Program-made: the position numbers and the translations under genes
Notes under the pieces: model-generated
Databases searched by the model: none
The model's input: only the letters and a program-made list of their open reading frames with translations
Told to the model about the DNA's origin: nothing
DNA from: a virus
Length of the DNA: 20,020 nt
Direction: 5' to 3' (one strand)
Virus record (IMG/VR): IMGVR_UViG_3300030090_001871
Coordinates: 1 to 20,020 of that record
Shown here: one piece after another, positions 2,544 to 19,868 of the stretch
How positions within the stretch are numbered: the first letter of the stretch is position 1
How the letters are laid out: every line of letters starts with the position of its first letter

Positions 2544-3740
2544 ATGGAAAAAGACGAAAAAGTAGTTGAAGAAACTACAAACCAAGAACAACCAAAAGAG
2601 GAAACTCCAAAGGTTGATCTAAGTAAATTTGAAAGTAAAGATGACGATAGTGTCACTAAAGTAGACTTAAGTAAAAAACCAGAAGAAAATGAAACCAAAG
2701 AAGAGACTGTTGAAGACAGTGCTGACGACGCAAGAGTGGTTGAACTCGTTGAAGACGCCGACACCTTACAAAAACAAGAAGAAGTACAATCGGAAACAGA
2801 AACACAGGAAACTCCAATTGTAGAAGAAATAACAGAAGAAGAATCAAAAGAGGTTGAGGAGCTAGCAGAGCAAGCTGAAGAAGCTATAGCTGAAACTAAA
2901 GCAACTGGAAAACCACTTCCAGAAAATATCCAAAAACTCATGGATTTTATGGAGGAAACTGGTGGTGATTTACAAGACTACGTAAGATTAAATCAAGATA
3001 TTAGTAAGTTAGACGATAATAGTGTTTTATATGAATATTATAAACAAACTAAACCTCATTTAACTACAGATGAAATAAACTTCCTTATGGAAGATTCTTT
3101 TTCTTATGACGAAGAAGTCGATGAAGAAAGAGATATTAAAAGAAAAAAACTAGCGTTAAAAGAGCAAGTTGCCAGCGCTAGGGCCTATTTAGACGGGCAA
3201 AAGTCTAAATACTATGAAGAGATTAAAGCTGGAAGCAAGTTGACTTCCGAACAACAAAAAGCTATTGATTTCTTTAATAGATACAACAAGGAATCAGAGG
3301 AGAATAATAAAAAGATTCAAAGCGAAGTTTCTGTTTTTAATAAAAAGACAGAGAGTTTATTTAACGATAAGTTTAAAGGATTCGAATACAATGTAGGAGA
3401 AAAGAAATTTAGATTTAATGTTAAAGATACTAAGGGTGTAAAAGAAGCGCAAAGTGATATTAATAATTTTGTTAGAAAGTTTCTAAACAAAGACGGTATG
3501 ATGGAAGACGCTAAAGGTTATCATAAATCACTCTACACAGCTATGAATGCTGATACTATAGCTCAACATTTTTATGAGCAAGGTAAAGCAGATGCTTTAA
3601 AAGAAAGCATAGCTAAATCTAAAAACATAAACATGGACCCACGACAATCTCAAAAAACAATTGAGGCTGGTGGTATGAAGTTTAAGGTGTTAGGTGATGA
3701 TTCTTCTGATTTTAAGTTTAAAATTAAAAATAGAAAATAA
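2544..3740 (+). CDS. Putative capsid scaffolding / head assembly protein
   Basis: A 398-residue protein lying between portal and major capsid genes, the usual place of the scaffold. Residues 1-115 are extremely rich in Glu, Thr and Lys and look disordered. From about 119 (KPLPENIQKLMDFMEETGG) the chain is predicted largely helical and charged, including LMEDSFSYDEEVDEERDIKR and a long Lys/Glu/Gln segment to about 260. A conserved-looking segment around 310-350 (DAKGYHKSLYTAMNADTIAQ) precedes a short basic C-terminus (SSDFKFKIKNRK). An acidic, helical body with a basic tail that could bind capsid subunits is the pattern of P22-type scaffolds; internal virion cargo is the alternative. I recall similar proteins in uncultured marine phages at the same position. 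No protease signature is seen here, so whether it is cleaved or exits intact is unknown. Confidence 0.7.
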   Translation: MEKDEKVVEETTNQEQPKEETPKVDLSKFESKDDDSVTKVDLSKKPEENETKEETVEDSADDARVVELVEDADTLQKQEEVQSETETQETPIVEEITEEESKEVEELAEQAEEAIAETKATGKPLPENIQKLMDFMEETGGDLQDYVRLNQDISKLDDNSVLYEYYKQTKPHLTTDEINFLMEDSFSYDEEVDEERDIKRKKLALKEQVASARAYLDGQKSKYYEEIKAGSKLTSEQQKAIDFFNRYNKESEENNKKIQSEVSVFNKKTESLFNDKFKGFEYNVGEKKFRFNVKDTKGVKEAQSDINNFVRKFLNKDGMMEDAKGYHKSLYTAMNADTIAQHFYEQGKADALKESIAKSKNINMDPRQSQKTIEAGGMKFKVLGDDSSDFKFKIKNRK

Positions 3741-3760: not shown

Positions 3761-5269
3761 ATGGCAATTACAGGTGCAACGAACTTACAGCCAGCAGCAG
3801 TTAAGGCAACGTTAAGTTCAAATTATATTGATTTCGCTACAGCAGGTTCTTCGGACGGTTGGGCGCAACAATACCTGCCAGACTTAATGGAAAAAGAAGC
3901 TGAGGTTTTTGGAAACAGAACTGTCTCAGGTTTTTTATCTCAAGTTGGTGCAGAAGAGGCTATGACATCCGATCAGGTTGTTTGGTCTGAACAAGGTAGA
4001 TTACACTTAGCATACAAAGGACATATCGTAAACGGTGCGGCAACAGCTAACGTTTCAGGTACTCCTGCCGGTGGTGCAATCGAGATTGATAATACAATTG
4101 ATGATGTAGCGGTAGATACTTCTTCAGTTGATCACGGTATTAGAGTAAATGACATCTTATTATTAGCTCACGCTACTAGTGGATGTGCAAGAGTGATCGT
4201 TGGTGATGTTACTAATGATCAAATCGATGTATTTCCTTATGATGCTACTGATAATGATGATGAGTTAGCTCACGCTTTTGAAGGTGCTGATGTTTCTAAC
4301 TCTGATACTATTACTATTTTAGTTATAGGTTCTGAGTTTTCAAAAGGTACTAACGGGCAAACTACAGCTAACGAACCAGGTTTTAAATCTTATACTAACA
4401 AACCAATCATTTTAAAAGATATGTATCACGTTTCAGGATCTGACGCGTCTGCTATCGGTTGGGTTGAAGTTTCTGGTGAAGACGGACAAAATGGTTATAT
4501 GTGGTATTTAAAAGCGGAAGGTGATACTAGAATGAGATTTGCTGATTACTGCGAGATGGCAATGATAGAATCTATAAAAGGTGATAATGCTCAATCGCAA
4601 GCTCCTTTAGCAGCTGGTCCTCTTGGTGCTTCGCATACTACTTTTGGTACAGAAGGTTTATTTGCTGCTATCGAATCTAGAGGTAACATAGCTACTGGTA
4701 TTACTGGTGTCAATGCTGCTACTGATTTAGCAGAGTTTGACGCTATGTTAGCTGAATTAGATTCTCAAGGAGCAATTGAAGAAAACATGATGTTTGTTAA
4801 TAGAGCAACTGCTCTTGCGATGGATGACATGCTAGCTTCAATGAACTCTTATGGAGCTGGCGGTACTTCTTATGGGGTATTCGACAACTCTGAAGATATG
4901 GCATTAAACTTAGGTTTTTCTGGTTTTAGAAGAGGTTCTTATGACTTCTACAAATCTGATTGGAAATACTTAAATCAACTAGATGGTAGAGGCGGTATCA
5001 ACGCTAAAGACACTGTTTACGGTATTAGAGGTACTTTAATTCCAGCAGGTGTATCTTCAGTATATGACCAAACATTAGGAAAGAACATGAAACGTCCTTT
5101 CTTACATGTTCGTTATAGAGCTTCACAAACAGATAACAGACGATTCAAAACTTGGATTACTGGATCTGTCGGAGCAACTACGTCTGATTTAGATGCAATG
5201 GAAGTAAACTACTTATCTGAAAGATGTTTAGTAGTTCAAGGTGCTAACAACTTCTTTTTATTGAAGTAA
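3761..5269 (+). CDS. Major capsid protein (probably HK97 fold)
   Basis: A 502-residue protein, the expected main building block of the head shell. The N-terminal region has a typical capsid arm followed by QQYLPDLMEKEAEVFGNRT (about 35-53) and a segment DQVVWSEQGRLHLAYKGH (about 71-88). Residues about 88-190 are a Gly/Ala/Asp/Thr-rich beta segment that may be an enlarged extended loop or inserted surface domain. The chain then resumes with SYTNKPIILKDMYHVSG, SGEDGQNGYMWYLKAEGDTR and, near the C-terminus, RPFLHVRYRASQTDNRRFKT. I recall these motifs from capsid proteins of marine crAss-like and related phages; the HK97 fold is inferred from that family. Codons look more G/C-balanced than the neighbours, fitting high expression. 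A strong terminator follows directly, and the A-rich leader at 3741-3760 precedes. Confidence 0.85.
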   Translation: MAITGATNLQPAAVKATLSSNYIDFATAGSSDGWAQQYLPDLMEKEAEVFGNRTVSGFLSQVGAEEAMTSDQVVWSEQGRLHLAYKGHIVNGAATANVSGTPAGGAIEIDNTIDDVAVDTSSVDHGIRVNDILLLAHATSGCARVIVGDVTNDQIDVFPYDATDNDDELAHAFEGADVSNSDTITILVIGSEFSKGTNGQTTANEPGFKSYTNKPIILKDMYHVSGSDASAIGWVEVSGEDGQNGYMWYLKAEGDTRMRFADYCEMAMIESIKGDNAQSQAPLAAGPLGASHTTFGTEGLFAAIESRGNIATGITGVNAATDLAEFDAMLAELDSQGAIEENMMFVNRATALAMDDMLASMNSYGAGGTSYGVFDNSEDMALNLGFSGFRRGSYDFYKSDWKYLNQLDGRGGINAKDTVYGIRGTLIPAGVSSVYDQTLGKNMKRPFLHVRYRASQTDNRRFKTWITGSVGATTSDLDAMEVNYLSERCLVVQGANNFFLLK

Positions 5270-6255: not shown

Positions 6256-6963
6256 ATGGCAGTAAGTGTAGATACAGTATATCAAACAGTGTTAGCTTTA
6301 GCTAATAAAGAACAAAGGGGTTATATAACTCCACAAGAATTTAACTTACACGCTGAACACGCTCAAATGAGCATTTTTAGCCAGTACTTTTATGATTTAA
6401 ATCAATTTAAAAGAGTACCTGGTAATAATACAGTGTACGGTAATCCAATAGATATTTTAGAAGAAAAAATATCAATATTTAAACAAGGTCCTACAACATT
6501 ATCTAGTAGTGGTGTTCAATTAAACGCTATAGGTAATGATATATATAAATTATCTCAAGTTACACTTTTTATGTCTCCTACAGATACTAAAGTTGCTGAA
6601 GAGATAACTTATGAAGATTACCATAGAACACAAAACTCACCCTTAATAAAAGCTACTGAAAATAGACCAGTATACTGGATAAAAGACGCAAAAGTCTATA
6701 TGGCACCTTTATCTAATGGCACATATCAAGCTCGTTGGATACGTAGACCTAAAAAACCTAATTGGACCTATATTGTAATAGGTGAAAAACCTCTATATAA
6801 TAGCGCCGCAACAGATCATCAAGATTTCGAACTACATCCTTCAGAACAAACAGATCTTATAATTAAAATACTACAACTATCTGGTGTTACTATAAAAGAT
6901 TATAATTTAGTACAAGTTGCTGCACAGGAAGAAGCTAAAAACATTCAACAAGAAAAATCATAA
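6256..6963 (+). CDS. Putative head-tail connector / ring protein 1
   Basis: A 235-residue protein with SVDTVYQTVLALANKEQRGYI at the start, then TPQEFNLHAEHAQMSIFSQY and FYDLNQFKR (about 25-55), a beta-rich centre (EDYHRTQNSPLIKATENRPV, YWIKDAKVYMAPLSNG) and a helical C-terminus (HPSEQTDLIIKILQLSGVTI, AAQEEAKNIQQ). I recall this arrangement from small structural proteins placed between capsid and tail-stabilisation genes in uncultured marine and crAss-like phages, where such proteins form a ring below the portal. The connector role is inferred from order and from that recollection; no catalytic motif is present. It is four bases upstream of the next gene, consistent with translational coupling. 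It is the first gene after the UUCG hairpin and so probably starts the neck/tail block. Confidence 0.6.
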   Translation: MAVSVDTVYQTVLALANKEQRGYITPQEFNLHAEHAQMSIFSQYFYDLNQFKRVPGNNTVYGNPIDILEEKISIFKQGPTTLSSSGVQLNAIGNDIYKLSQVTLFMSPTDTKVAEEITYEDYHRTQNSPLIKATENRPVYWIKDAKVYMAPLSNGTYQARWIRRPKKPNWTYIVIGEKPLYNSAATDHQDFELHPSEQTDLIIKILQLSGVTIKDYNLVQVAAQEEAKNIQQEKS

Positions 6964-6967
6964 TTAA

Positions 6968-8554
6968 ATGGGATATTTAGATAACACGTCACAACAGTTA
7001 TATTACCAAGGTAATAATTTAGGTAACTATCAATTTTGTTCTTTAGAAGATATAATAAATCAGTTTATGTTTGTTTATGTTGGCGAAGACAAAATTATAC
7101 GTAAATGTAATAGGATCGATGTTGCTTTTCACGCTCAACGAGCTTTAGCGGAATTAAGTTTTGATACATTTAAATCAGTAAAAGCACAGGAAATAGAAGT
7201 ACCTGCTACTTTACAAATGTTGTTACCACATGATTATGTTAATTATACTAAATTAAGTTGGGTTGATGGTTCTGGTATTAAACATCCTATATATCCAACA
7301 AGACACACATCTAATCCTTTTGACGTAAATCAAAACGCAGATGGAACTTATACTTTTCCTACAAACGCAAGTGTAGGTGTTAATTTAGATTTTGAAGATC
7401 CTTTAATACATCCTTGGCAAAGTCACACGCCTGAAAGCCTTGCTAACATGGGGCCAAGTACTAAACACTATATTTACACTAACGGAACAGATCAAAGTGG
7501 TGGACTTACTTATTATGCAGATGAAATATCAATAACTGGAGCAGACAACGCTTTAACATTTAAACAGTACGTGTGGCAAAGTCATGGTCATAATAGAAGT
7601 TTTCATTATTGTGTTTGGCAAGCGATAGACGTGAGTCAAATGGCTTCAATAACACTGCAAGCTACGGGAACAGCAGAAGGAGCTTCTACTAATATACTAG
7701 GTGGTACCGTTACAGTTGGAATAAGTCATACCGCGCCATCACCTGAGACTATCCCTTATTCTAATAGTCAAGATTACACACCTAATGAAGGATGGTTTGA
7801 TCCAGACGGTAGCTCAAATACTTTTTTAACCACATATGCCGGTGATCCAGCTGGTTTAAAGTGGACCCCTGGTGAGACAAGCGTAATTAAACATCTCATA
7901 GATGATGACTCTATAGACGTTTCAGCTCATAACACTGTTTATTTAGTAATAAGTAGTGTGAGTGACTTTACTACAGCATCTCCAGCTCCAAACTTTCATA
8001 CTAATCCTATTTTTGCTACACTTTTTACAACTAATACTGTAGATAATATATTTATAACAAGTCCAACGGGATCATTACCATTATCTACAAACTCTACTAA
8101 CACATCAACAGCGTGGAGTAGTTACAAATCAAACACTCCATCGGAGAACAATAATAATGACTACGAAGATGATACTTATTGGCCTTATGAAGGAGAAAGA
8201 TATGGATTAGAACCTGAACATGCGCAAATAAATGGATCTTTTTATATTGATCAATTAAGAGGAAAAATACATTTCTCATCTAATATTTCTGGAAAAACTG
8301 TGATATTAGATTATATAAGTGACAGTCTTGGTACAGACGCAGAAATGCAAGTACATAAATTAGCTGAAGAAGCGATGTATAGATATATACTACATAGCGT
8401 TGCTTCTAGCTATGCTTATACTCAACAATTAGTACCTAGACTTAAAAAAGAAAAAATAGCAGCTATTAGACAAGCTAAACTAAGATTATCAAATTATAAA
8501 TTAGAAGAATTAACTCAAATACTTAGAGGTAAATCTAAGTTGATAAAACACTAA
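6968..8554 (+). CDS. Putative head-tail connector / ring protein 2 with a large insertion
   Basis: A 528-residue protein whose two ends look like one family and whose middle does not. The N-terminal part (1-125) has a helical segment CNRIDVAFHAQRALAELSFD and a conserved-looking block LLPHDYVNYTKLSWVDGSG. The C-terminal part (from about 372) has DDTYWPYEGERYGLEPEHAQ, INGSFYIDQLRGKIHFSS, SGKTVILDYISDSLGTDAEM, then a basic helical tail (VPRLKKEKIAAIRQAKLRLS, LRGKSKLIKH). As I remember, marine phage homologues join these halves with only a short linker; here about 240 residues of Thr/Ser/Asn-rich beta sequence intervene. Position between ring protein 1 and the stabilisation protein supports a neck or tail-adaptor role. 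The start follows the previous stop by four bases, and the stop is three bases before the giant gene. Confidence 0.6.
   Translation: MGYLDNTSQQLYYQGNNLGNYQFCSLEDIINQFMFVYVGEDKIIRKCNRIDVAFHAQRALAELSFDTFKSVKAQEIEVPATLQMLLPHDYVNYTKLSWVDGSGIKHPIYPTRHTSNPFDVNQNADGTYTFPTNASVGVNLDFEDPLIHPWQSHTPESLANMGPSTKHYIYTNGTDQSGGLTYYADEISITGADNALTFKQYVWQSHGHNRSFHYCVWQAIDVSQMASITLQATGTAEGASTNILGGTVTVGISHTAPSPETIPYSNSQDYTPNEGWFDPDGSSNTFLTTYAGDPAGLKWTPGETSVIKHLIDDDSIDVSAHNTVYLVISSVSDFTTASPAPNFHTNPIFATLFTTNTVDNIFITSPTGSLPLSTNSTNTSTAWSSYKSNTPSENNNNDYEDDTYWPYEGERYGLEPEHAQINGSFYIDQLRGKIHFSSNISGKTVILDYISDSLGTDAEMQVHKLAEEAMYRYILHSVASSYAYTQQLVPRLKKEKIAAIRQAKLRLSNYKLEELTQILRGKSKLIKH
7355..8083 (+). other. Beta-rich inserted domain inside ring protein 2
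   Basis: Codons for residues about 130-372. Composition shifts to Ser, Thr, Asn, Asp and Pro, with alternating hydrophobics typical of beta sandwiches (ITGADNALTFKQYVWQ, HNRSFHYCVWQAIDVSQ, AHNTVYLVISSVSDFTT). The frame is continuous and the flanks are family-like, so this is a domain insertion rather than a fusion error. An exposed carbohydrate-binding or decoration role is inference; limits are approximate. Confidence 0.45.
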
Positions 8555-8557
8555 TAT

Positions 8558-11500
8558 ATGCCAGAGATTAAGAACACTTTTGTTCAAGGTAAAATGAATA
8601 AAGACCTTGACGAAAGATTATTACCAAACGGACAATATAGAGATGCGATGAATGTGCAAGTATCAACATCAGAAGGATCAGATGTTGGTACCGTACAAAA
8701 CGTTTTAGGTAATGAGGTTTTAGGTGGTTTAGATGGCGATTGTGTTGGATCAATATCAAATGAAAAAACAAATAAATTATATTGGTTTATAACAACAGAC
8801 ACTAAAGATGCTATATATGAGTACTCACAAGGTACTTTACCTGTACCAATTTTTATCGACACAAAAGCTAAAACTAATGATGCTGTATTAGAGTTTGGTA
8901 GTAGAATTATTACTGGTATAAATATAGTTGATGATTTTTTATTTTGGACAGATGGAGTTACAGAACCAAAAAAAATAAATATAACAAGAAGTAGGTTAGG
9001 TACTATAAATGCCGTTACGCATACAAAATTAGTTATTAAAGATGTTATAGTTCAAGAAGATGACGGTTCAGGTAATCTTATTGATATTGATATAAAAAAA
9101 GAACATATAACGGTAATAAAAAAGAAACCTACTTCTAAACTTAATGTTAATTTAATAACAAGCCCTCAAACAACCTCAAGCGGTGGTAAACCTAGTTTGT
9201 TTGAAAAAACATTATCAAGATTTTCGTATAGATACAAGTACGAAGACGGAGAGTATTCTGCTTTCGGTCCATTTACAGATGTAATTTTTAATCCTTTATA
9301 TCCTGATGGTAAAGATAATACAAATTATTTTTTGCCAAAAGATCCTTATAATCTAGCTATGCTTAATAAAGTAGATGCTATAGAACTGTATGATTTTATT
9401 GGGCCAGACACCCCTAAAGACGTTGTACAAGTTGATATACTTTACAAACAAGAAAACTCAACAGTTGTCTACTCTGTTGCTAGTGTAAAAAGAGACTCTA
9501 CAGATTGGAATGCTGAAGGATATAGTCAAGGCAATAGTTTTCAACAAAACTCTAGTTACAGAGGTTATTATAGTATACAGTACGAAAATATATATGCAGC
9601 TGTTCCAGAAAACCAGTTATTAAGAGTTTATGACAACGTACCTAGAAGTGCTTTGTCACAAGAAATAACAGGTAGTAGACTTGTTTACGGTAATTATGTA
9701 CAAAACTATAGTATAAGTGAAGAGCCAGAAGTTTATTTAGATTATATACAAAGATTAAATTTTACACCTGGAACAAATCAAGGTATTTATAATTTTGCAG
9801 ATCAAGGTTTAAGATCGATAAAGTCACAAAGAAACTACCAACTTGGCGTTGTTTTTGGTGATGAATTTGGAAGAGAAACACCTGTGTTTTCATCTACTAA
9901 TTCTGCTATTAAAGTTCCTTGGGAATCTGGTGGTAATTTATCTGCTAGTCAATCATATCAATTAATGGCTTATATATCTTCTAACATACCTTCTTGGGTT
10001 GATTATTATAAGTTTTATGTAAAACAAACATCTGGAGAATATTATAATTTAGTAATGGACAAGGTTTATACGCCTATTGAATATGTTGAGGGTGAAGACA
10101 AGTTTGATCACGTATGGATTTCTTTTCCTTCTTCAGATAGAAATAAAATAAATGAAGACGATTATTTAATTTTAAAGAAAAAATTAGATGGTGCGAACAC
10201 GCAGTTTGCTGAAGAAAACAGATTTAAAATATTAGATATACAAAACGAAGCCCCGAATGCTATAAAGTTTCAATATAAAACTTTAGGTATACATACTAAC
10301 TCAGCAAGCGGTAGCTATACAGGTTTACTAGATGATAATCCTAATGAGTCTGACTTATTTGACGCAACCGAACCAGATGATGATCCTCCTGGTATTTATC
10401 AGTTTTATCCTCAAAGAATGGATGTTGAAGGTAATGACATCATACAAGTAGATAAAAGTAATTTTGAAAATATAAATAGTGGAACTGGTGCTTCTTTAAT
10501 GCCTGGAGTAGTTCATCAAGAAGGTGCTTCTACAGCTGCTGATTTAAAAACTAACGCAAACGATACAGCAAACAGATATATTTCTTGGAACAATGGTACA
10601 GAATACTCTAAAAGATATAGAATATCAAATATAAGATTAGATCCTAATGGAACTGATGCTCATTATATGTTAAAGCTAGAAGAAAGTATTAGTGCAATAG
10701 ACGCTGGTATAGCTAAACATCCAACAGACACTAATACAGTACACCCTAGGTTACATGAAAACCTTACTGTTCAAATAGAAAGAAAAGATTTAAAAGATTT
10801 AGATGAATTTTCTGGTAGATTTTTTGCTAAAATAATTAGAGATGATGATTCTAATTCGCTTCAAGACCAACCAGGTGCGTCTACCTTAGATATTTTTAAC
10901 GTTTTAGCGCAGGCTAACGCTCATTGGTTTGCTGATAGTAGAAGTGATATGGACGCAGATGATCAAGCTATTAATAATTTTGATTTAGCTACAGCGCCAT
11001 CAAGTACTCATACTGTGGCTACAGTTACTGGTGGTACAGCGACCGCTTTAACAACAACTAGAGCTGGTTGGTCTGCGTTACAGGCACATGCAGACACTAA
11101 TAACGCAAAGTTTTTCATTGACAACATGTATTTTGTTGGTGGGCAAAATGGTACTAATGTAGGGTTGGCTAGAAACTCTGGTAGTGTCGTAAGAGGCACA
11201 CCTATTTCTTATGGTCAACAAACTTGGACTAATCAACTACCTCAGCCTAGAAGAGTTTCACCTGGTGGTTTTATTCCAGATGCAAATCCTGTTCCTTGGA
11301 GAACAGATCACCCCTCTACCTCAGATGTTGTTCCGATAGGTCCCGCTGAAGGCACTATTAATTATTGGCCTAGAGTACTTTCTGGTGGAACGGAACAAGG
11401 TAATTCAGAAGAAATTAATGTTTGGACCGATATTAGAGCTGGTGTAAATGTTGAAGATACTTATAATCTTTATTTAGGACAAACATTACAAACCCAATCT

Positions 11501-14500
11501 GGTGGTACAGGTGTTTCTCCCTATTATATAAGCGCTAATTATGGAACAAGTAGATGGTCACCATTTGCTCCAGACTCATCAAACGCTTCAAATTTACTTT
11601 TAACAGAAGATGACATCTTATTTGATGGTACACCCGCTCAAGTAGGACCTGGTGTTAGATTAGGTTATTACGAAAGAGATAGCATATCTATTTCATATCC
11701 TCCAAACGAAAATGGTTGGTTAGCTTTACAAAGATATGATGATGACTTCCCTACAGGTTATTTAGAGGTTTCTGGTAGTTCGGCACAGGCTAACGCTAAC
11801 GTAATGGAAGGTTTGATAATAACAGATGATACTCACACTGGAAATCCTACCGCGGCTGGACAAACCGCTGGTTCAAGAAAATGGAGAATACAAGGAGCGC
11901 TTCACAACACTGGTTATACTGATAATGTATACGGTAGTACTAATGGTAAAGTTTATTTACACTTGTCTTTTTTAGGCCCAGGACAAGATCTCGTACCGGA
12001 TACTATAGATTTAAGCGGTGCTAAAGTTGCTGGTTATTATAGTTTAGCAAATCATTTGCAAGGAATATGGGGTGGTGGAGCTTTTGTTGCTAACGAAGAT
12101 TATAGTAAAACCTTACAAGATGGAGCAAATGGTCCGCCTTATAGAGATACTAATTCTGTTAGTAAAGAGGTTGTTATAGAGTGTGAAGGTCATTACGTAT
12201 TAAATATTGATAATTATGTTGGAGTGCCAAATGGTGTGCCTAGACCTGACAGTGAGTGGTACACGGTTCCAACTGCTCCAGGCCCTGGAGTTGGGCAAGG
12301 GTATGATCAAAATTACGCTGATCAACACAACAACCAGTGGAATATAAACTTTCCTAGTACAAATGAAAACCAGCAATACGCTGATTTTGCAGACTCGCTT
12401 ACATCTGGTACTAAAATTAAATTTATAGATGATCCAAACAACACAGTTTACACTATAAACTCTGTAAGAATTAGGAAAATATATAATCATACTCTTTGGA
12501 AAAGAACTCCAGTATATGACCATACGAGCTCTAGTAATGAAATGAAGCCAGGTACTAGTGTAGAAGAGGCCGCTATTGATTGGGCTAAATCTTTAGGAGG
12601 CAATGATGAGGCCACTAAAAGAAGCGCGTTAGAACAAAAAATAAAAGATTTTGGTGCTAAAGACAATAGAAGATTAGTTTATATTTTAGAGCTTGATCAA
12701 AATCCTGCAGATGCAGCTGTATCTCCTAGCTTTAATCCAGTAGATGGAAACAATGGTTTAACCGCTTCAACTTTTGGAGGTGTACAAGTGGTAACTCAAG
12801 ATACTCGTAATTTATTAGGTAAAGTTGTTTCTATTCCGGCTGTATTTGAAACAGAACCTAAAGAAGATACTGGTTTAGATATTTATTATGAAGCTTCACA
12901 AGCTATCCCCGCTGAAATAAATATGACAAATAGAGAGTTGTTTGCCCCTGTTGGTTGTAGAGTAGAAATAGTAGAAGCAGATGGAACTTTTTTTAGCCTT
13001 GCTAGAAACGGTTATCAAAGCATAACGGATGATATTATATTACAACAATGGGATACTACAAATGAATTAAGAGTTAAGATTATAGGTAGAGTAAGCGATG
13101 GTTTTAATAAGTTTTCAGCTTTTTCAACACCAATAGATAATTACGATGAAAAATTTATGCGTTTTTATAGGGCTGATGGTAGCTATACTACAGCTAAAAT
13201 TAATTCAATACAATCTTCTACAACTGATTTTATTACAGAGTTTAACTTAGAAAGCTCAACTATAGATAGACACTTTGGATTAAGCTGGTATAATTGTTTT
13301 TCATTTGGTGATGGTGTTGAATCAGATAGAATAAGAGACGATTTTAACGCTATGAAGATATCTAATGGAGCCAGAGCGTCAACTACTACAGAAGAACCTT
13401 ACGAAGAAGATCATAGAAAATACGGTTTAATATTTTCAGGTTTATATAACTCTAACTCTAGTTTAAATGAGTTAAATCAGTTTATAATGGCTGAAAAAAT
13501 AACAAAAGATATAAACCCAACATATGGCAGTATACAAAAGTTGTTTAGCAGAAACACAGATTTAGTAACATTTTGTGAGGATAGAGTTGTAAAAATATTA
13601 GCCAACAAAGACGCTGTATTTAATGCTGACGGTAATCCGCAATTAACAGCTAACGTAAACGTATTAGGACAAACAATACCTTTTATAGGTGATTATGGTA
13701 TATCAAAAAATCCAGAATCTTTTGCTTACTCTTCTTATAGAGCTTATTTTGCAGACAAACAGAGAGGCGCTGTGTTAAGATTATCACAAGATGGATTAAC
13801 AACTATATCTGATCAAGGTATGCACGACTGGTTTAGAGATAATTTAAGACATGCTGGGTTTATAGTTGGTAGTTACGATGCTTATAAAAGAACTTATAAT
13901 ATTACGTTAAAAGAGCCTTTATCTTCAAACTTATTAATAAACTCAAAAATTGAAACAGGTGAATATTTAAGTACTACATTAGAAGATTATCAAGAGTATT
14001 TACAGGATGTAACAGGTTCAGAAATAGGACACGCTGATTTCTTTAATTTTAACGATGCTAATAGTGATGGTACTCCAGATGGTTTAGCAGGTTGGAACGC
14101 TAGTGCGGATTGGTACGTTAGTTCAGGTATGAATCCAGGTTTACTAGCCTATACAGTAATAAGAGAATATCCAGCTATACCACAAGGTTATTATCAACAA
14201 GGTAGATCTCAAGGAGAAGTTCTTGTAGATTCTAGTAATGAAGTGTTTGGCACAACAACTGCAAGTACTGATATTACTTACATGGCTGCTTATGGTGGTG
14301 GTTCTAATGGATTTAACAATGTCACGGGAGGACCTCCTCACAGTCAAGATAGAATTATAAACGATTCTATTCCTTCTACTGATTACGGTACGATTTATAA
14401 TTTAGCTTCTGGTGTTAATAATAATATTTGGTATTTTGGTCAAGGTTCAGGTAGTGTTACAACCTCACCTAGTGGTGGTGGTATTAATAGTTCAGAATGG

Positions 14501-17500
14501 GCAATTATAGATAAAGGTATAGCGCTTCAAAGTTACCCAGACTTAAACGACACGTCTCCTGTTAGTTTAGATCCAGATACTTCTTTTATTAGAACACCAA
14601 TGGGTTATAGTGATCCAACAACCGCAAGAAATAATTTTTTTGCTGGAACAGAGATATTAAATAGCACTGCACAAAGTGGTGTAGGTTTATTTGAAAACGT
14701 ACCAAGTGGAGGATTAACTACACCTATGACAGTGTTTAATGGTGAAGAAGTAGAAATAAAATTAAGATTTCATATTCCACCTTATCAAAATACAGCTCAA
14801 GGGGCTTCAGATACCACAAACGGACCTAGCGTTTCAAATAGTTTAACTGACACACCTCCAGATACAAATAAACCTGGTTCAGGTATTTATAAAGCTTTTG
14901 AAATAAAACTACACGAAGGAACTCCAGCTGCTGATGGTTCAACGGTTATTGCTAGTAGTTTATTAATGGATCCTCAAGGTACAAATCAAAACCTTCCTTA
15001 TGATTATCAAGGTAATACTTTTAACTCAAATTATCAAACTAACCCTATATTTCAAACAAACTCGTACGCTCCAACTTTAGACACTTCTCCGGAAAACGAA
15101 CATGCATTTACGCTTAAATTTACAAACAATACAACAAATGCTGGTGTTGTTGTTGAAGACCTTAAAATATCCGTACATTTAATATTTACAGATTCAGCTG
15201 GCAACAAGTATACTGATCCAAGCTTTCAAATAGGTAGTGCTGTTTTAGACTATTTATTTATAGTAAAACGATATAGATTAGAAGATGTTGGCACCCCTGC
15301 GGTGATTGTTCAACAAGACGTACCAGCTATCCCAGCAACCGCTGTTTCAGCGTGGACAGAGGTTATTATACCTGACTACCCTGCTTATTGGAGTAGTCAA
15401 ACACCTGGGGTTAATGGCGTTCCTGCTAGAGACTTTTTTGAATTACAAAATAATGAAACTCAATTTGGTACATCTAATCCACCCACTTCACAAACAGCTA
15501 ATGGGGTTACTATTAATCAGTCAGATGGTTCTGTTTCTTCAAGCGGTGTTACTTACAATTGGAAAGAAGGAACTAATAATGGGACAACAAATTATCAAAA
15601 CACTTATACATATGCTGATTTTATTTATAACATAGATACAGACACCTATATCGCTACCGGAAGTAACCCTAACGACCAACAGCCTGGTATATCAGAGACA
15701 TTAAAAGTAAAAGCAGCAAGCACTAACTGGTGTAATTTAAGGTTTTTTCCAGTGGATAATACTGGAGCCCCTAAACCTTTAGAGCCTGGAGCTTGGTATG
15801 TTGTAGATATTATGGCTGAAGACGGTCAAGACCCAGAAACTGAAGGAACTTGGAGCCCTACTGGTAATGGTAAAATACGTATTTATGATGTTATAAATAC
15901 AGATATTAAACTAGATAATTTAAACGAAGATGGTTCCGCTTGGAATGGCGAGCTAAATTGGGGTGATGGTGGAAGCGTGTTATACAGGTATCCAGATCAT
16001 CATATGGGGCAAATAACTAACAATAGCACTCCACCTGGTCATGGTAATACTGGGTATTGGGGTGGTTCAAGCGATACAATATTTAGAAGAAGTATAGGTT
16101 TAGAATATTATAAACCTAACGTGTTAGATTCTACTAGGTCAGGTAATGTTTGGACTTTAGCAACAGGCACAGAAAGATTTTTTGGTGACAGAGCTTATGG
16201 TAATTGGGCTAATAATAATAAAAGGTATAGAGCGATATTTCAATTACACCCTAACAGCCATAAGGTAAAAGGCGGTCATACGGATGCTCTTAATATTGTT
16301 TTTAGTAACGTTGAGTTAGGTATAAATCTTATAAAATTTACAAAAATACAAAATCCAACTAATACAGATGCTACTAATATGGGTTCGGGTAATTGGAATG
16401 ATTTAGTTGGTAGTAATATAGTTCCAGCGCCACAGCAAAGTAACACAGGTGCTTGGTTACCACATCCTTGGTATTCAGACGAGTCAAGTCCTGCTGGTTA
16501 CGGTACTTTTCACGCTTTAGAGCTTTCAAAATGTTATTACTTAAAAGGTAATGGTTTTCAAGACTATTACGGTGGTTTAAATATAGACACTTCTGTATAC
16601 CATACTGGCTACGGAGATACTGGTGTACAATATCAAGCTGGAGCTGGTACGCATTGGAAAATGTATTTTTCAGATCACCCGAATACGAATCTTACAACTT
16701 ATAGTACTGGCCCTGGTAGTCCTATAGCTTCAGATGATGGTTGGGAGTTAAGTTTTAATGTAAATCCTGGAGTTGATCATCTTCGTAATCCTAGAACTTC
16801 TACTAGAGGTAATTTTTTTGGCTCTGTTACTAATAAAAAAGATGCAGTGGGTAACACTCATGGACTAGGTACTTTTGCTGGATTTTTCTTTAATCAAATA
16901 TGGGACGAAGGTGATTATAAGATAAGAGCAAACTTTAATGATACTGGGCCTTATGAAATTCTTTATAAAGCTATAGGTTCCACTGATTACGTAAACTACA
17001 CACAGGTAAGACCTAATGCTGTATGCGAAGATATATCTGGTTATATTGCTACTGTTTATGGAGTTGACCTTACACATGAGTTTAGTTCAGCAAGAATACA
17101 ATTTAATTCTCAAGGAAGTAACGCGTTTTCTTTTGTTGGCGCAATAGATAATATATCTTTAACAAATATGACTAACTGGTTTACTGGTGGTAGTATAGAC
17201 GCTTGGTCTACATCTGGTTTTGATCCTTTAGATGATAATTTTATATTTTTTGATAACATAACAAATCAAAGCAACCCTTCAATAGGTTTTGTAAACGCAC
17301 CTACCGTTAATAATAATGCTGATAGAGTGCAAATTTTTCAAACAATATCACAAGTAGTTACTACTGGAGAGCAGTTTTTAATACAGTTTGAGCATGATAT
17401 CTCTGGTGGTACTATAGAGTGCTATTATTTTAACTCAAACAATGTTGGTTTTAGAACAGGTGAAATATCAGGTAGTGGTATTTATAATCAAGTACATACT

Positions 17501-18247
17501 ATAGGTGAAATAGATGTTGTTACAAGTCTTCCAATAGATACAATTGAAACTGATGAATTAATTAACACTTTTGTTATTTTTGTAAAATCTGGTTTAGTTA
17601 GCGGTAATGTAGATAATTTAAAAATGCAACAACAAATATCTTTATCACCAAGACATTTGCAAGAAAACCCTATAGAAAGCCCTCAAAGTTTATCACCTAC
17701 AACTTTAACTTATGATGAAAGCGTTAAGGGTTGGGTAAGTTTTAAATCTTATATACCTGAACAAGGACTAAGCTTGTCTAAAAACTATTATACTATAAAA
17801 AGCGGTAATTTATATTTACACCATGTTGAAGGTGCTGTTTATGATGCTGAAAATGATACATATAGTTACTCTGTAAATAGAAATACTTTCTATGGTGCTT
17901 TTACAGAATCTTCTTTAACAACTGTATTAAACCAAGAACCATCTACTGTTAAAAGCTTTAATACTATAAACTACGAAGGTAGTCAATCAAGAATATTACA
18001 GTATGAAACATTTAACGATCTTAGTAATATAGATACTTATAATTTACAAAACAAACCTGGTTGGTATGTTAGTTCGCTACACACAGATAAACAAAATGGA
18101 AATATAAAGGAATTTATAGAAAAAGAAGGTAAATGGTTTAACTATATAAAAGGAGACGTTAGCTCTCCTATATCAACCGCTGAATTTAGCTTTCAAGGTT
18201 TAGGCTTCGTACAACAAATAATTAACGCACAAGATAACATAGAGTAA
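8558..18247 (+). CDS. Giant tail/DNA-stabilisation (muzzle-type) structural protein
   Basis: A 3229-residue protein filling almost half the window. Residues 1-60 (NTFVQGKMNKDLDERLLPNG, QYRDAMNVQVSTSEGSDVGT) match the N-terminal signature I recall for the tail stabilisation/muzzle proteins of crAss-like and marine phages, distant relatives of P22 gp10. Blade-like segments follow: FLFWTDGVTEPKKINI (about 127), RYKYEDGEYSAFGPFTD, SRLVYGNYVQNY (about 371), LGVVFGDEFGRETPVFSS. The core resumes at about 1431-1785 (FETEPKEDTGLDIYYEASQA, AEKITKDINPTYGSIQKLFS, LANKDAVFNADGNPQL, ADKQRGAVLRLSQDGL) and again at about 3048-3229 (YDESVKGWVSFKSYIPEQG, VKSFNTINYEGSQSR, KEGKWFNYIKGD). Between these lie two large beta-rich, Gly/Asn/Thr-rich insertions. 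It is far longer than P22 gp10 (about 470) and crAss muzzle proteins. Likely role: closing the portal channel after packaging, forming the tail, and host contact through the insertions (inference). No enzymatic motif was recognised. Confidence 0.75.
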   Translation: MPEIKNTFVQGKMNKDLDERLLPNGQYRDAMNVQVSTSEGSDVGTVQNVLGNEVLGGLDGDCVGSISNEKTNKLYWFITTDTKDAIYEYSQGTLPVPIFIDTKAKTNDAVLEFGSRIITGINIVDDFLFWTDGVTEPKKINITRSRLGTINAVTHTKLVIKDVIVQEDDGSGNLIDIDIKKEHITVIKKKPTSKLNVNLITSPQTTSSGGKPSLFEKTLSRFSYRYKYEDGEYSAFGPFTDVIFNPLYPDGKDNTNYFLPKDPYNLAMLNKVDAIELYDFIGPDTPKDVVQVDILYKQENSTVVYSVASVKRDSTDWNAEGYSQGNSFQQNSSYRGYYSIQYENIYAAVPENQLLRVYDNVPRSALSQEITGSRLVYGNYVQNYSISEEPEVYLDYIQRLNFTPGTNQGIYNFADQGLRSIKSQRNYQLGVVFGDEFGRETPVFSSTNSAIKVPWESGGNLSASQSYQLMAYISSNIPSWVDYYKFYVKQTSGEYYNLVMDKVYTPIEYVEGEDKFDHVWISFPSSDRNKINEDDYLILKKKLDGANTQFAEENRFKILDIQNEAPNAIKFQYKTLGIHTNSASGSYTGLLDDNPNESDLFDATEPDDDPPGIYQFYPQRMDVEGNDIIQVDKSNFENINSGTGASLMPGVVHQEGASTAADLKTNANDTANRYISWNNGTEYSKRYRISNIRLDPNGTDAHYMLKLEESISAIDAGIAKHPTDTNTVHPRLHENLTVQIERKDLKDLDEFSGRFFAKIIRDDDSNSLQDQPGASTLDIFNVLAQANAHWFADSRSDMDADDQAINNFDLATAPSSTHTVATVTGGTATALTTTRAGWSALQAHADTNNAKFFIDNMYFVGGQNGTNVGLARNSGSVVRGTPISYGQQTWTNQLPQPRRVSPGGFIPDANPVPWRTDHPSTSDVVPIGPAEGTINYWPRVLSGGTEQGNSEEINVWTDIRAGVNVEDTYNLYLGQTLQTQSGGTGVSPYYISANYGTSRWSPFAPDSSNASNLLLTEDDILFDGTPAQVGPGVRLGYYERDSISISYPPNENGWLALQRYDDDFPTGYLEVSGSSAQANANVMEGLIITDDTHTGNPTAAGQTAGSRKWRIQGALHNTGYTDNVYGSTNGKVYLHLSFLGPGQDLVPDTIDLSGAKVAGYYSLANHLQGIWGGGAFVANEDYSKTLQDGANGPPYRDTNSVSKEVVIECEGHYVLNIDNYVGVPNGVPRPDSEWYTVPTAPGPGVGQGYDQNYADQHNNQWNINFPSTNENQQYADFADSLTSGTKIKFIDDPNNTVYTINSVRIRKIYNHTLWKRTPVYDHTSSSNEMKPGTSVEEAAIDWAKSLGGNDEATKRSALEQKIKDFGAKDNRRLVYILELDQNPADAAVSPSFNPVDGNNGLTASTFGGVQVVTQDTRNLLGKVVSIPAVFETEPKEDTGLDIYYEASQAIPAEINMTNRELFAPVGCRVEIVEADGTFFSLARNGYQSITDDIILQQWDTTNELRVKIIGRVSDGFNKFSAFSTPIDNYDEKFMRFYRADGSYTTAKINSIQSSTTDFITEFNLESSTIDRHFGLSWYNCFSFGDGVESDRIRDDFNAMKISNGARASTTTEEPYEEDHRKYGLIFSGLYNSNSSLNELNQFIMAEKITKDINPTYGSIQKLFSRNTDLVTFCEDRVVKILANKDAVFNADGNPQLTANVNVLGQTIPFIGDYGISKNPESFAYSSYRAYFADKQRGAVLRLSQDGLTTISDQGMHDWFRDNLRHAGFIVGSYDAYKRTYNITLKEPLSSNLLINSKIETGEYLSTTLEDYQEYLQDVTGSEIGHADFFNFNDANSDGTPDGLAGWNASADWYVSSGMNPGLLAYTVIREYPAIPQGYYQQGRSQGEVLVDSSNEVFGTTTASTDITYMAAYGGGSNGFNNVTGGPPHSQDRIINDSIPSTDYGTIYNLASGVNNNIWYFGQGSGSVTTSPSGGGINSSEWAIIDKGIALQSYPDLNDTSPVSLDPDTSFIRTPMGYSDPTTARNNFFAGTEILNSTAQSGVGLFENVPSGGLTTPMTVFNGEEVEIKLRFHIPPYQNTAQGASDTTNGPSVSNSLTDTPPDTNKPGSGIYKAFEIKLHEGTPAADGSTVIASSLLMDPQGTNQNLPYDYQGNTFNSNYQTNPIFQTNSYAPTLDTSPENEHAFTLKFTNNTTNAGVVVEDLKISVHLIFTDSAGNKYTDPSFQIGSAVLDYLFIVKRYRLEDVGTPAVIVQQDVPAIPATAVSAWTEVIIPDYPAYWSSQTPGVNGVPARDFFELQNNETQFGTSNPPTSQTANGVTINQSDGSVSSSGVTYNWKEGTNNGTTNYQNTYTYADFIYNIDTDTYIATGSNPNDQQPGISETLKVKAASTNWCNLRFFPVDNTGAPKPLEPGAWYVVDIMAEDGQDPETEGTWSPTGNGKIRIYDVINTDIKLDNLNEDGSAWNGELNWGDGGSVLYRYPDHHMGQITNNSTPPGHGNTGYWGGSSDTIFRRSIGLEYYKPNVLDSTRSGNVWTLATGTERFFGDRAYGNWANNNKRYRAIFQLHPNSHKVKGGHTDALNIVFSNVELGINLIKFTKIQNPTNTDATNMGSGNWNDLVGSNIVPAPQQSNTGAWLPHPWYSDESSPAGYGTFHALELSKCYYLKGNGFQDYYGGLNIDTSVYHTGYGDTGVQYQAGAGTHWKMYFSDHPNTNLTTYSTGPGSPIASDDGWELSFNVNPGVDHLRNPRTSTRGNFFGSVTNKKDAVGNTHGLGTFAGFFFNQIWDEGDYKIRANFNDTGPYEILYKAIGSTDYVNYTQVRPNAVCEDISGYIATVYGVDLTHEFSSARIQFNSQGSNAFSFVGAIDNISLTNMTNWFTGGSIDAWSTSGFDPLDDNFIFFDNITNQSNPSIGFVNAPTVNNNADRVQIFQTISQVVTTGEQFLIQFEHDISGGTIECYYFNSNNVGFRTGEISGSGIYNQVHTIGEIDVVTSLPIDTIETDELINTFVIFVKSGLVSGNVDNLKMQQQISLSPRHLQENPIESPQSLSPTTLTYDESVKGWVSFKSYIPEQGLSLSKNYYTIKSGNLYLHHVEGAVYDAENDTYSYSVNRNTFYGAFTESSLTTVLNQEPSTVKSFNTINYEGSQSRILQYETFNDLSNIDTYNLQNKPGWYVSSLHTDKQNGNIKEFIEKEGKWFNYIKGDVSSPISTAEFSFQGLGFVQQIINAQDNIE
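10890..12840 (+). other. Insertion A in the giant tail protein
   Basis: Codons for residues about 780-1428. The segment after GRFFAKIIRDD (core-like) and before FETEPKEDTGLDIYY (core-like) is low in Lys and rich in Gly, Asn, Thr, Ser, Asp and Trp, with beta-like strands (YSLANHLQGIWGGGAFVANE, EVVIECEGHYVLNIDNY) and small disordered Gly/Pro loops (TAPGPGVGQGYDQNYAD). Some parts, such as the stretch near residues 1290-1400, may belong to the core, so limits are approximate. I recognise no named family. Confidence 0.4.
13905..17700 (+). other. Insertion B in the giant tail protein
   Basis: Codons for residues about 1783-3047, between YNITLKEP and TLTYDESVKGWVSFKS, two motifs that I expect to be near neighbours in shorter family members. 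The roughly 1260 residues are beta-rich. They begin with FNDANSDGTPDGLAGWNA (about 1829), the kind of opening seen in CBM4/9-like jelly rolls, and contain further sandwich-like units around 2060-2240 and 2378-2600 as well as the pair at the C-terminal end. The reading frame is intact throughout. A receptor- or glycan-binding role is inference. Confidence 0.45.
16900..17640 (+). other. Two tandem carbohydrate-binding-like jelly rolls
   Basis: Codons for residues about 2782-3028. The first unit ends with VGAIDNISLTNMT (Gly2861-Thr2872) and the second starts immediately with NWFTGGSIDAWSTSGFDP and ends with GNVDNLKM (Gly3016-Met3023). A closing (I/V)DN(I/L) strand and an opening Gly-rich segment with a Trp are classical edges of CBM-like jelly-roll domains in phage and secreted proteins. 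Ligand and exact family are unknown. Confidence 0.45.
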
Positions 18248-18249
18248 CC

Positions 18250-19503
18250 ATGCCACAAATAAGACAATTTAATATAGATCAAAGTATAATGTCTAAATCA
18301 AAGACAAAAAAACAATATAGTATAGTTGGAGATATAAAATCTGAGTACATACTACAAGTTGTTAGTAGTGAAAATAAGTTTTATAATTTTATAAGTAAAA
18401 CTTTTACAGATGATTTTACACCGCAAAATGTTTTAAAAAAATTTTTAGTGTCTGAAGCTGAAAATGGTTTTATTTTGTTTCCTGCTGTAACTGGCGCTAT
18501 AACTTATAAAGTTCTTTTAATAGCTACACCTGAATCAGGAACATCTTTTCTTAGCACTAATTATGGTAGTAGTAGCAATAATGTTATTTGTAAAACAATA
18601 GAGCAGCAAGGAGATGTAACTGTTACTTTAAACTTAGCTACAGCTAATACTAATAGTTATGGTGATCCAACTACACCTGCTAATTTAGAAAATCCACCAG
18701 CGCCTAACATTACCTTTACCGCACCCCCAAACTCAAGCATCAAAACAGCTTTAAATACAAATTATGTAGTTTATAATAGAAAAACAGCCGCTAACGGTTT
18801 TGGTTTAAGATTAACTAGACAACCATTAGATAGTGATTGGTATTACGAAGAAACAGAAGTAATAGTTACAAATCCAGCTGGTGATGGTGTTAGTAATAAC
18901 ACTGTAATCGTAAATAGTTTAACTGGTTTAATTGCTGGTATGGAACTTATATATCACAAAGGAACTACAGCTCCAGCAGCTACTACAACTATTACTAATA
19001 TAAATACCGGTACAAACACAATTACTTTTTCTACTTCGACAGCTTTTGAAAACGGTGAAACTATGACTTTTAGGGCTCATGGTAGTAGTGCTATTAGTTC
19101 TGCTATTGGAGGTGATATTGTATTTGGCCCTGGAAAAGCAACTATGGAAACTTTAACAAAAACAGTTAAATCTGGCGCTACTAGTGCTAATATAACTATT
19201 ACCGATACATATGGTATATCTGGTGGCGGTCACGTTACTGTAAACGGTGTAGGTATTAATAACGCGACAACTAACAATATAAACACGGTAACTGAAGATG
19301 TTGATGGTGGTGGAAGCCCTGATGGTGTTATAGCTATGGATAATTCTTCTACAGTTACAACTGGAACTTTATTAACTTTTACGGGATCAGCTACGCAAAT
19401 AAAATTTACTTTTGACAAACCTGCTATTTCAAATTTTCCATCTGCTGATAAAACAATATATTTAAACTTAGATAACTTTATAACGCCCGGAGCGGCATCG
19501 TAA
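18250..19503 (+). CDS. Beta-rich putative virion protein (tail/fibre-associated)
   Basis: A 417-residue protein. The N-terminal 100 residues (RQFNIDQSIMSKSKTKKQYS, SEYILQVVSSENKFYNFISK, NGFILFPAVTGAITYKVLLI) look like a beta domain that I recall from uncharacterised structural proteins of uncultured marine phages. Residues about 205-285 and 300-390 are two beta segments of similar build, Thr/Asn/Gly-rich, with alternating hydrophobics (NTVIVNSLTGLIAGMELIYH, TITNINTGTNTITFSTS; SANITITDTYGISGGGHVTV). This resembles fibre or spike shafts. There is no signal peptide, membrane span or enzymatic motif. Its ATG is two bases after the giant gene's stop, so translation is probably coupled, and it likely joins the same tail assembly. 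Function remains unassigned. Confidence 0.6.
   Translation: MPQIRQFNIDQSIMSKSKTKKQYSIVGDIKSEYILQVVSSENKFYNFISKTFTDDFTPQNVLKKFLVSEAENGFILFPAVTGAITYKVLLIATPESGTSFLSTNYGSSSNNVICKTIEQQGDVTVTLNLATANTNSYGDPTTPANLENPPAPNITFTAPPNSSIKTALNTNYVVYNRKTAANGFGLRLTRQPLDSDWYYEETEVIVTNPAGDGVSNNTVIVNSLTGLIAGMELIYHKGTTAPAATTTITNINTGTNTITFSTSTAFENGETMTFRAHGSSAISSAIGGDIVFGPGKATMETLTKTVKSGATSANITITDTYGISGGGHVTVNGVGINNATTNNINTVTEDVDGGGSPDGVIAMDNSSTVTTGTLLTFTGSATQIKFTFDKPAISNFPSADKTIYLNLDNFITPGAAS
18868..19420 (+). repeat. Two diverged beta repeats within the 417-residue protein
   Basis: The two segments described for this gene share the pattern: a hydrophobic strand, a Gly turn (GLIAGMEL / GISGGGHVTV), an N/T-rich strand (TTITNINTGTNT / TTNNINTVTED) and a closing strand with TMTFRAHGS or LLTFTGSAT. 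Similarity is at protein pattern level only; the DNA is not obviously repeated, so this is an old duplication or convergent shaft composition. Confidence 0.35.
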
Positions 19504-19505
19504 TT

Positions 19506-19868
19506 ATGCAAATAAATTTAACATCACAAATAGCAAATATATCTTTACAAATAGGTGATCAAGCTTATTTTATACCAAATGATAATATATCATATAATGT
19601 TAATGGGCAAACCTCTTCAACAGATAAACCGTTACTTTTAGGTACTATATCAGGAATTGGTAGTGATTATATAGTTTTAGATTCTACTACTTATGGACCA
19701 TATTACGCTGACTTACAACAAAACGATTTTATTATGTTTTCAAAAAATAAAATAGTAAATAATACTAGCATGTTAGGTTATTACGCTGAAGTAAAATTAA
19801 AAAATAGTTCAACTGCTAAAGCTGAGTTATTTGCTTTAAGTTCTGAGGTTGCTATTAGTAGTAAATAA
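19506..19868 (+). CDS. Small conserved phage protein of unknown function
   Basis: A 120-residue, beta-rich soluble protein. Motifs SLQIGDQAYFIPND (about 15-28), DKPLLLGTISGIGSDYIVLD (about 40-60), NDFIMFSKNKIVNNTSMLGY and YAEVKLKNSSTAKAELFALS, ending SSEVAISSK, match a small protein that I remember as widespread in marine phages next to tail genes. No function is established to my knowledge; a virion or tail-assembly role is inferred from position. Two bases separate it from the previous stop, so it is co-translated with the tail block, and it is the last gene of that block before a 53-base gap. Confidence 0.65.
   Translation: MQINLTSQIANISLQIGDQAYFIPNDNISYNVNGQTSSTDKPLLLGTISGIGSDYIVLDSTTYGPYYADLQQNDFIMFSKNKIVNNTSMLGYYAEVKLKNSSTAKAELFALSSEVAISSK

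Follow-up and report, generated by a model that had tools for sequence, protein, structure and literature searches.

A muzzle protein more than doubled in size in a crAssphage-related phage: host-gripping parts may be built into the tail gate

Gene content of the locus and identity of the muzzle

The stretch of DNA analysed here (the window) is a 20,020-base virus fragment from IMG/VR (IMGVR_UViG_3300030090_001871), and all of its listed genes are on the + strand. The genes encode, in order, a portal (93-2513), a scaffold-like protein (2544-3740), the major capsid protein (MCP, 3761-5269), a 282-aa protein located between MCP and the first ring-type protein (6256-6963), a second ring protein of 528 aa (6968-8554) with an insert of its own at residues ~137-380, the muzzle (tail gate or tail-stabilisation protein) of 3,229 aa and 356 kDa (8558-18247), a 417-aa protein with no family match (18250-19503), and the small protein p120 of 120 aa (19506-19868), related to the second half of phrog_18548. 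The roles of the scaffold-like protein and of both ring proteins were assigned from position and PHROG class. The order of portal, MCP, ring protein(s) and muzzle by which a crassvirus muzzle is recognised is present in the window, and the contig stops 1.8 kb downstream of the muzzle gene. No RNA families and no tandem repeats were found in the window. Several phages whose muzzles are extended at the C-terminus have a different gene (~550-890 aa) in the slot of the 417-aa protein.

The frame at 8558-18247 is identified by its profile matches as an intact crAss-like phage muzzle (tail-gate) protein. It starts with ATG, encodes 3,229 aa with zero internal stops and is aligned over residues 1-3222, at 49% identity, by the nearest relative among the matches listed (L007, 3,250 aa, contig G001), so the single uninterrupted 9.7-kb frame of the preliminary description holds. 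Pfam crAss_MUZ matched residues 6-147 when block 1 was searched separately (E 3.8e-10), and crAss_MUZ_C (PF25729) matched the C-terminal end searched alone (E 3.8e-10); with 39 and 40.5 bits, both are above the curated cut-off of 27. The C-terminus also matched phrog_18548, and PHROG 14478 matched the muzzle in four separate stretches. In a profile-profile comparison, 13 short muzzle relatives were matched to 15 gut-type/Crassvirales muzzles with a probability of 98.5 and E 3e-15; phicrAss001 gp44 was the first match, and the alignment spanned gp44 residues 1-1342 and L048 residues 1-1575. The Pfam matches at both ends and the match to gp44 bear out the muzzle family membership proposed earlier. 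A PDB sequence-profile search with 12 short muzzles gave zero muzzle matches, and the link to gp44 is therefore drawn from the profile-profile and structural comparisons. The closest solved relative is phicrAss001 gp44; the structural relationship to P22 gp10 is more distant.

In the excerpts of PMC10172136 used here, the phicrAss001 muzzle is described as having a ring-joining domain, a seven-bladed propeller, two Ig-like domains and a crass fold, and insertions in the crass region and in IG2 are given as the cause of length variation within the family. The whole core of the window muzzle is homologous to that of gp44 (7QOK/7QOL; PMC10172136), MUZ_C is common to both, and the order of MCP, ring proteins and muzzle is similar, whereas gp44 has 1,371 aa against 3,229 aa and forms a tight hairpin at the position of insertion 2 (below). 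Unlike the crass and IG2 variation, variation at a propeller site, as seen here in insertion 2, is not mentioned for the gp44 family in these excerpts. According to the same excerpts, the T7 gp12 nozzle has the same place in the tail and the same propeller type. P22 gp10 and Sf6 gp8 likewise share tail position and propeller type with the muzzle (Z 6.7-6.9 with the L058 model), but the matched chains have 471 aa and are without both variable regions of the window muzzle.

Core blocks, insertion site and distribution

A search with block 1 gave at least 80 IMG/VR loci, the matches listed favouring near relatives, and named Cellulophaga, Flavobacterium and Maribacter phages were added to the comparison set. 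The 68 complete muzzles compared (the window and 67 others, from IMG/VR and named phages) had 946-3,518 aa, the window muzzle being the ninth longest; the named gut-type/Crassvirales muzzles sampled had 1,338-1,599 aa. Over the same contigs, the CV of length was 0.9% for the portal, 2.7% for the scaffold-like protein, 3.2% for MCP, 4.3% for the 282-aa protein, 4.5% for the first ring protein, 22% for the second ring protein and 26% for the muzzle. General length drift is ruled out by the low values (0.9-4.5%) of the first five proteins compared with the muzzle.

The nearest named relatives, with the same gene order, are Cellulophaga phi38:1 and phi18:3, Flavobacterium elemoviruses and Maribacter phage Panino (PHROG 14478). 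The muzzles of these named phages (946-1,613 aa) are 26-31% identical to the window in block 1, but have no MUZ_C-flanked insertion 2, and in phi18:3, phi19:3 and Panino MUZ_C is on a separate gene. The Panino muzzle lies on two adjacent ORFs of 946 and 320 aa (L005:9989-12829 and 12940-13902) with block 2 divided, which represents a split or a frameshift.

The conserved core had been described as three separated blocks, and comparison with the 67 other complete muzzles confirmed their placement at residues ~1-760/780, ~1426-1784 and 3049-3229. Core block 1 (residues 1-760, 8558-10837) was delimited by crAss_MUZ, the gp44 profile alignment and motif spacing, and terminates near the GRFFAKI motif (boundary about 760-780); by homology to gp44, it probably comprises the ring-joining/N-terminal region, the first part of the propeller, an Ig-like domain and the start of the crass-domain region. 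Core block 2 (residues ~1426-1784, 12833-13909) corresponds to the later propeller region and includes the most conserved part of the muzzle (residues 1575-1784), and core block 3 (residues 3049-3229, 17702-18247) is crAss_MUZ_C. The three blocks are contiguous in a natural homologue, L058 (residues 1-1142). The L058 model was of low confidence (pLDDT 47, 15 sequences), and its top structural matches were 7qol_P (Z 10.3, 402 aligned residues) and 7qok_A (Z 10.0), followed by propeller proteins and then by the Sf6 (Z 6.9) and P22 (Z 6.7) tail entries; Foldseek alone on this model gave nothing under E 0.001. The earlier view that blocks 1, 2 and 3 make up one core is upheld insofar as the best matches of the model are phicrAss001 muzzle entries, and these matches agree with one propeller core, short of proof.

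The region between blocks 1 and 2, insertion 1 (residues ~761-1425, 10838-12832), was delimited by motif spacing and is colinear in L011 and L012; these two are without insertion 2 and align with the window over residues 1-922 and 1023-1784. The spacing from GRFF.K to NP.[FW]ETEP is 667 aa in the window; among relatives with both motifs identified, it ranges from 154 to 778 aa. As judged from these alignments, insertion 1 is an enlarged version of a region also present in relatives and not an added one; its counterpart in gp44 is the crass-domain region, which is already known to vary in length. Compared with the smallest relatives, the crass-domain region would have gained a few hundred residues. 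Domain profiles of insertion 2 gave zero significant matches to insertion 1. Two giant insertions had been proposed; the second is a true one, whereas the first is the expansion of a pre-existing region.

Insertion 2 (residues 1785-3048, 1,264 aa, 138 kDa, 13910-17701) was delimited by the empty sites of relatives. Its boundaries lie at a beta-hairpin, with GSYDAYKRTYNITL on one side and TLTYDESVKGWVSFKSY on the other, and it is flanked by ...GSYDAYKRTYNITL upstream and TLTYDESVKGWVSFKSYIPEQG... downstream. At the empty site, the same two strands are joined by few residues, e.g., GSYDQKKNEYNLTLNLNTISYDEKVKGWSSFKSF in L048; the connection has 3-20 aa in L048, L012, L011, L084, L082 and others, and 3-50 residues in many relatives. 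The site corresponds to gp44 ~1198-1200 (between VYFTYK and DHCLCYSE), in the propeller region between IG2 and MUZ_C, and in the low-confidence L058 model the homologous site is between predicted strands 971-976 and 981-985. On the strength of these alignments, insertion 2 is a true insertion in a single propeller-region beta-hairpin. Shorter homologues are gapped at the points proposed in the preliminary description, exactly so for insertion 2.

At this hairpin, 584-1,443 aa are present in 30 of the 68 muzzles compared, comprising the window, L007 and 28 further contigs, two of which (L027 and L028) are identical in length and pattern. An assembly artefact is ruled out, since L007 aligns over residues 1-3222 and the 28 further contigs have an insertion at the same hairpin. 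An intein was rejected, as there is no Pfam match and the site content varies widely in length across relatives. In a core tree of 821 columns (inserts excluded, and L028 omitted as a copy of L027), one clade with an SH-aLRT of 100 contains 29 carriers of insertion 2 and three non-carriers (L011, L012 and L044). Three changes suffice for the distribution on this tree, a number as low being reached in none of 500 shuffles, and the simplest reading would be one gain and two losses. Because three clade members are without it, insertion 2 is dispensable. Outside this clade, relatives often have 190-1,239 aa past MUZ_C instead, and a large insertion together with a large C-terminal extension was found in none of the muzzles compared, the nearest case being L066 with 283 aa at the site. 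Among 50,697 named phage records, none matched insertion 2, a single-sequence scan of collections with it found nothing, and no tandem or long DNA repeats of note occur inside the muzzle gene.

Domains and evolution of insertion 2, and other tail proteins

The AlphaFold model of window residues 1850-3049 (28 sequences) was all-beta with a mean pLDDT of 60; the last 180 residues were mostly at 73-92 and parts before them were also high, 474 of the 1,200 residues were under 50, and much of the first 850 residues was poorly modelled. The last domain (residues 2866-3028, 17153-17641, ending GNVDNLKM) was delimited by VIA-align structural matches. In the model (residues 1017-1179, mostly pLDDT 73-92), it gave Z 10.7 against CBM16 2zey (122 residues, 2.6 A), Z 10.6 against CBM4-2 2y6k, and Z 10.4 against the terminal part of the phage K2-2 tailspike (8iqe), and it is thus modelled as a carbohydrate-binding-module-like jelly roll. 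Sequence identity to the CBM4/CBM16 modules is ~10%. Phage K2-2 and Kp7 tail fibres also end in modules of this type, whereas here the predicted module lies inside the tail-gate protein. In hhalign, the penultimate domain (residues ~2540-2864, 16175-17149, ending AIDNISLTN) proved related to the last domain with a probability of 97% and E 6e-11, and parts of 2720-2860 were modelled at a pLDDT above 75. A CBM-cenC protein and minor tail proteins are among the viral structure matches. No Pfam CBM family was over the cut-off in insertion 2, and a weak GalBD_like match (E 0.009) was found in one of 28 relatives. Jelly rolls of the CBM-like type are common, and such a fold by itself shows no binding. 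The top Foldseek rows for the insertion model were set aside as long, high-rmsd overlays of multidomain proteins.

Between the window and L007, identity was 88.6% in residues 1575-1784, 74% in core block 1, 48% in the crass region and 44% in insertion 2, and the corresponding dN/dS values were 0.10, 0.21, 0.42 and 0.47. In every compared pair carrying insertion 2, it was the least conserved region. Across pairs, dN/dS was 0.34-0.58 in insertion 2 against 0-0.16 in the 1575-1784 block, the ratios of distant pairs being rough owing to high dS. Since all dN/dS values are below 1, insertion 2 is a real, constrained and fast-changing coding region.

The insert of the second ring protein (~137-380) has 245 aa in the window, 184-458 aa in insertion-2 phages and 6-14 aa in many others; in L067, L052 and L051, the N part (1-136) runs directly into the C part (380-528). 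This insert is extra mass on the tail barrel besides the tip. As hhalign of the ring-protein insert of the window clade against insertion 2 found no similarity, homology between the two is not claimed; weak matches of insertion-2 profiles to the L068 ring protein (E 6e-4) and to that of L065 (E 0.013) are taken as leads only. The small protein p120 matches the second half of phrog_18548, the first half of which is the muzzle MUZ_C. In phi18:3 and phi19:3, MUZ_C and the p120-like part are one 241-aa protein (L002:14852-15577 and L003:14849-15574), which suggests that p120 sits at the end of the muzzle. L044 belongs to the clade but has no insertion 2; its p120 (L044:17534-18790) has grown to 419 aa and contains segments matching insertion-2 domain profiles (E 4e-5 and 2e-4), so that the module shows up in another tail protein.

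Fibre-like ORFs are found in relatives that bear the insertion: G009 (muzzle 3,354 aa) has one of 590 aa with a weak tail-fibre PHROG match (E 7e-6), G003 (muzzle 2,755 aa) has two of 932 and 446 aa with a domain in common with the G009 ORF, and G001 has at least 517 aa of a further one; a domain is shared among the ORFs of the three. The suggestion that the enlarged muzzle stands in place of separate fibres is thus not supported in these relatives; the window contig itself ends too soon after the muzzle to show such genes. Because related phages also have separate fibre-like genes, arms formed by insertion 2 need not be the main receptor binders. An ORF on the nearest relative's contig (L088:13851-15878) has a Por_Secre_tail (type IX secretion) signal at its end (E 1.4e-10), a mark of Bacteroidota. 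Relatives also encode a GroEL-like protein (phrog_5725, L099:1434-3023) and ribonucleotide reductase (phrog_367, L091:4220-6085).

Proposed role of insertion 2

The reading we favour, and consider probable, is that of a muzzle with a propeller core and a multidomain arm set into a tight hairpin, giving six gate-anchored arms that grip host glycans. The propeller core would close the tail channel as in phicrAss001, and the arm of ~138 kDa would be placed in one tight beta-hairpin of the propeller region. If the protein is a hexamer like gp44, the muzzle would have a mass of ~2.1 MDa against ~1 MDa, with insertion 2 contributing 0.83 MDa. Six arms would then project outward from the gate at the tail tip, each ending in two related domains, and would most likely bind a surface polysaccharide of the host, which is probably a member of Bacteroidota. 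In this way, the gate protein itself might act as a receptor-binding organ. A further step, possible but doubtful, is that the gate is the main receptor-binding organ, with grip and gate opening linked in one polypeptide and the domain class moving among muzzle, p120 and possibly the ring protein.

It is rather unlikely that the insertions are structural bulk that lengthens, stiffens or shields the tail tip while recognition is left to separate fibres. The fibre-like ORFs of G001, G003 and G009, the dN/dS well below 1 in all parts of the muzzle and the absence of insertion 2 from three clade members are in keeping with such bulk, but the terminal domain is predicted to have a CBM-like fold, and evolution is far faster in the insertion than in the core, as in host-facing parts. 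CBM-like domains commonly accompany glycan-cleaving enzymes, and on this general ground insertion 2 might carry an enzyme, e.g., a polysaccharide depolymerase; with zero enzyme families over the Pfam cut-off and a predicted content of beta strands in scattered sandwiches around a poorly modelled middle, this is very improbable.

Another origin for the insertion, also improbable though somewhat less so, is a once-separate tail fibre or adhesin gene that became joined to the muzzle gene. In L072, L052, phi18:3 and phi19:3, the muzzle is split close to the insertion 2 site, and such split forms could be intermediates; other relatives have 0.2-1.2 kaa past MUZ_C, never jointly with a large insertion in the set compared. 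However, the split forms are outside the insertion clade, the frame is kept on both sides of insertion 2 inside one hairpin, the insertion 2 profile is without detectable similarity to the C-terminal extensions, and no homologue of insertion 2 was found in the named phages.

The window muzzle is best regarded, from the sequence comparisons and the model, as a well-supported variant of a known protein kind, and the gripping role proposed for insertion 2 is plausible. A propeller-region insertion site would be added to the crass and IG2 variation already described in the excerpts of PMC10172136 used here. The finding also warns against taking a 3,000-codon muzzle gene for a fibre or a misassembly. 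For the question of how the short tail of crAss-like phages senses a host and opens the gate, the 29 sampled carriers, together with the three members without the arm at a defined hairpin, form a natural comparison set; the empty-site relatives L011 and L012 indicate that a gate without the arm is tolerated. In this crAssphage-related phage, the muzzle has more than doubled in size, and host-gripping parts may have been built into the tail gate.
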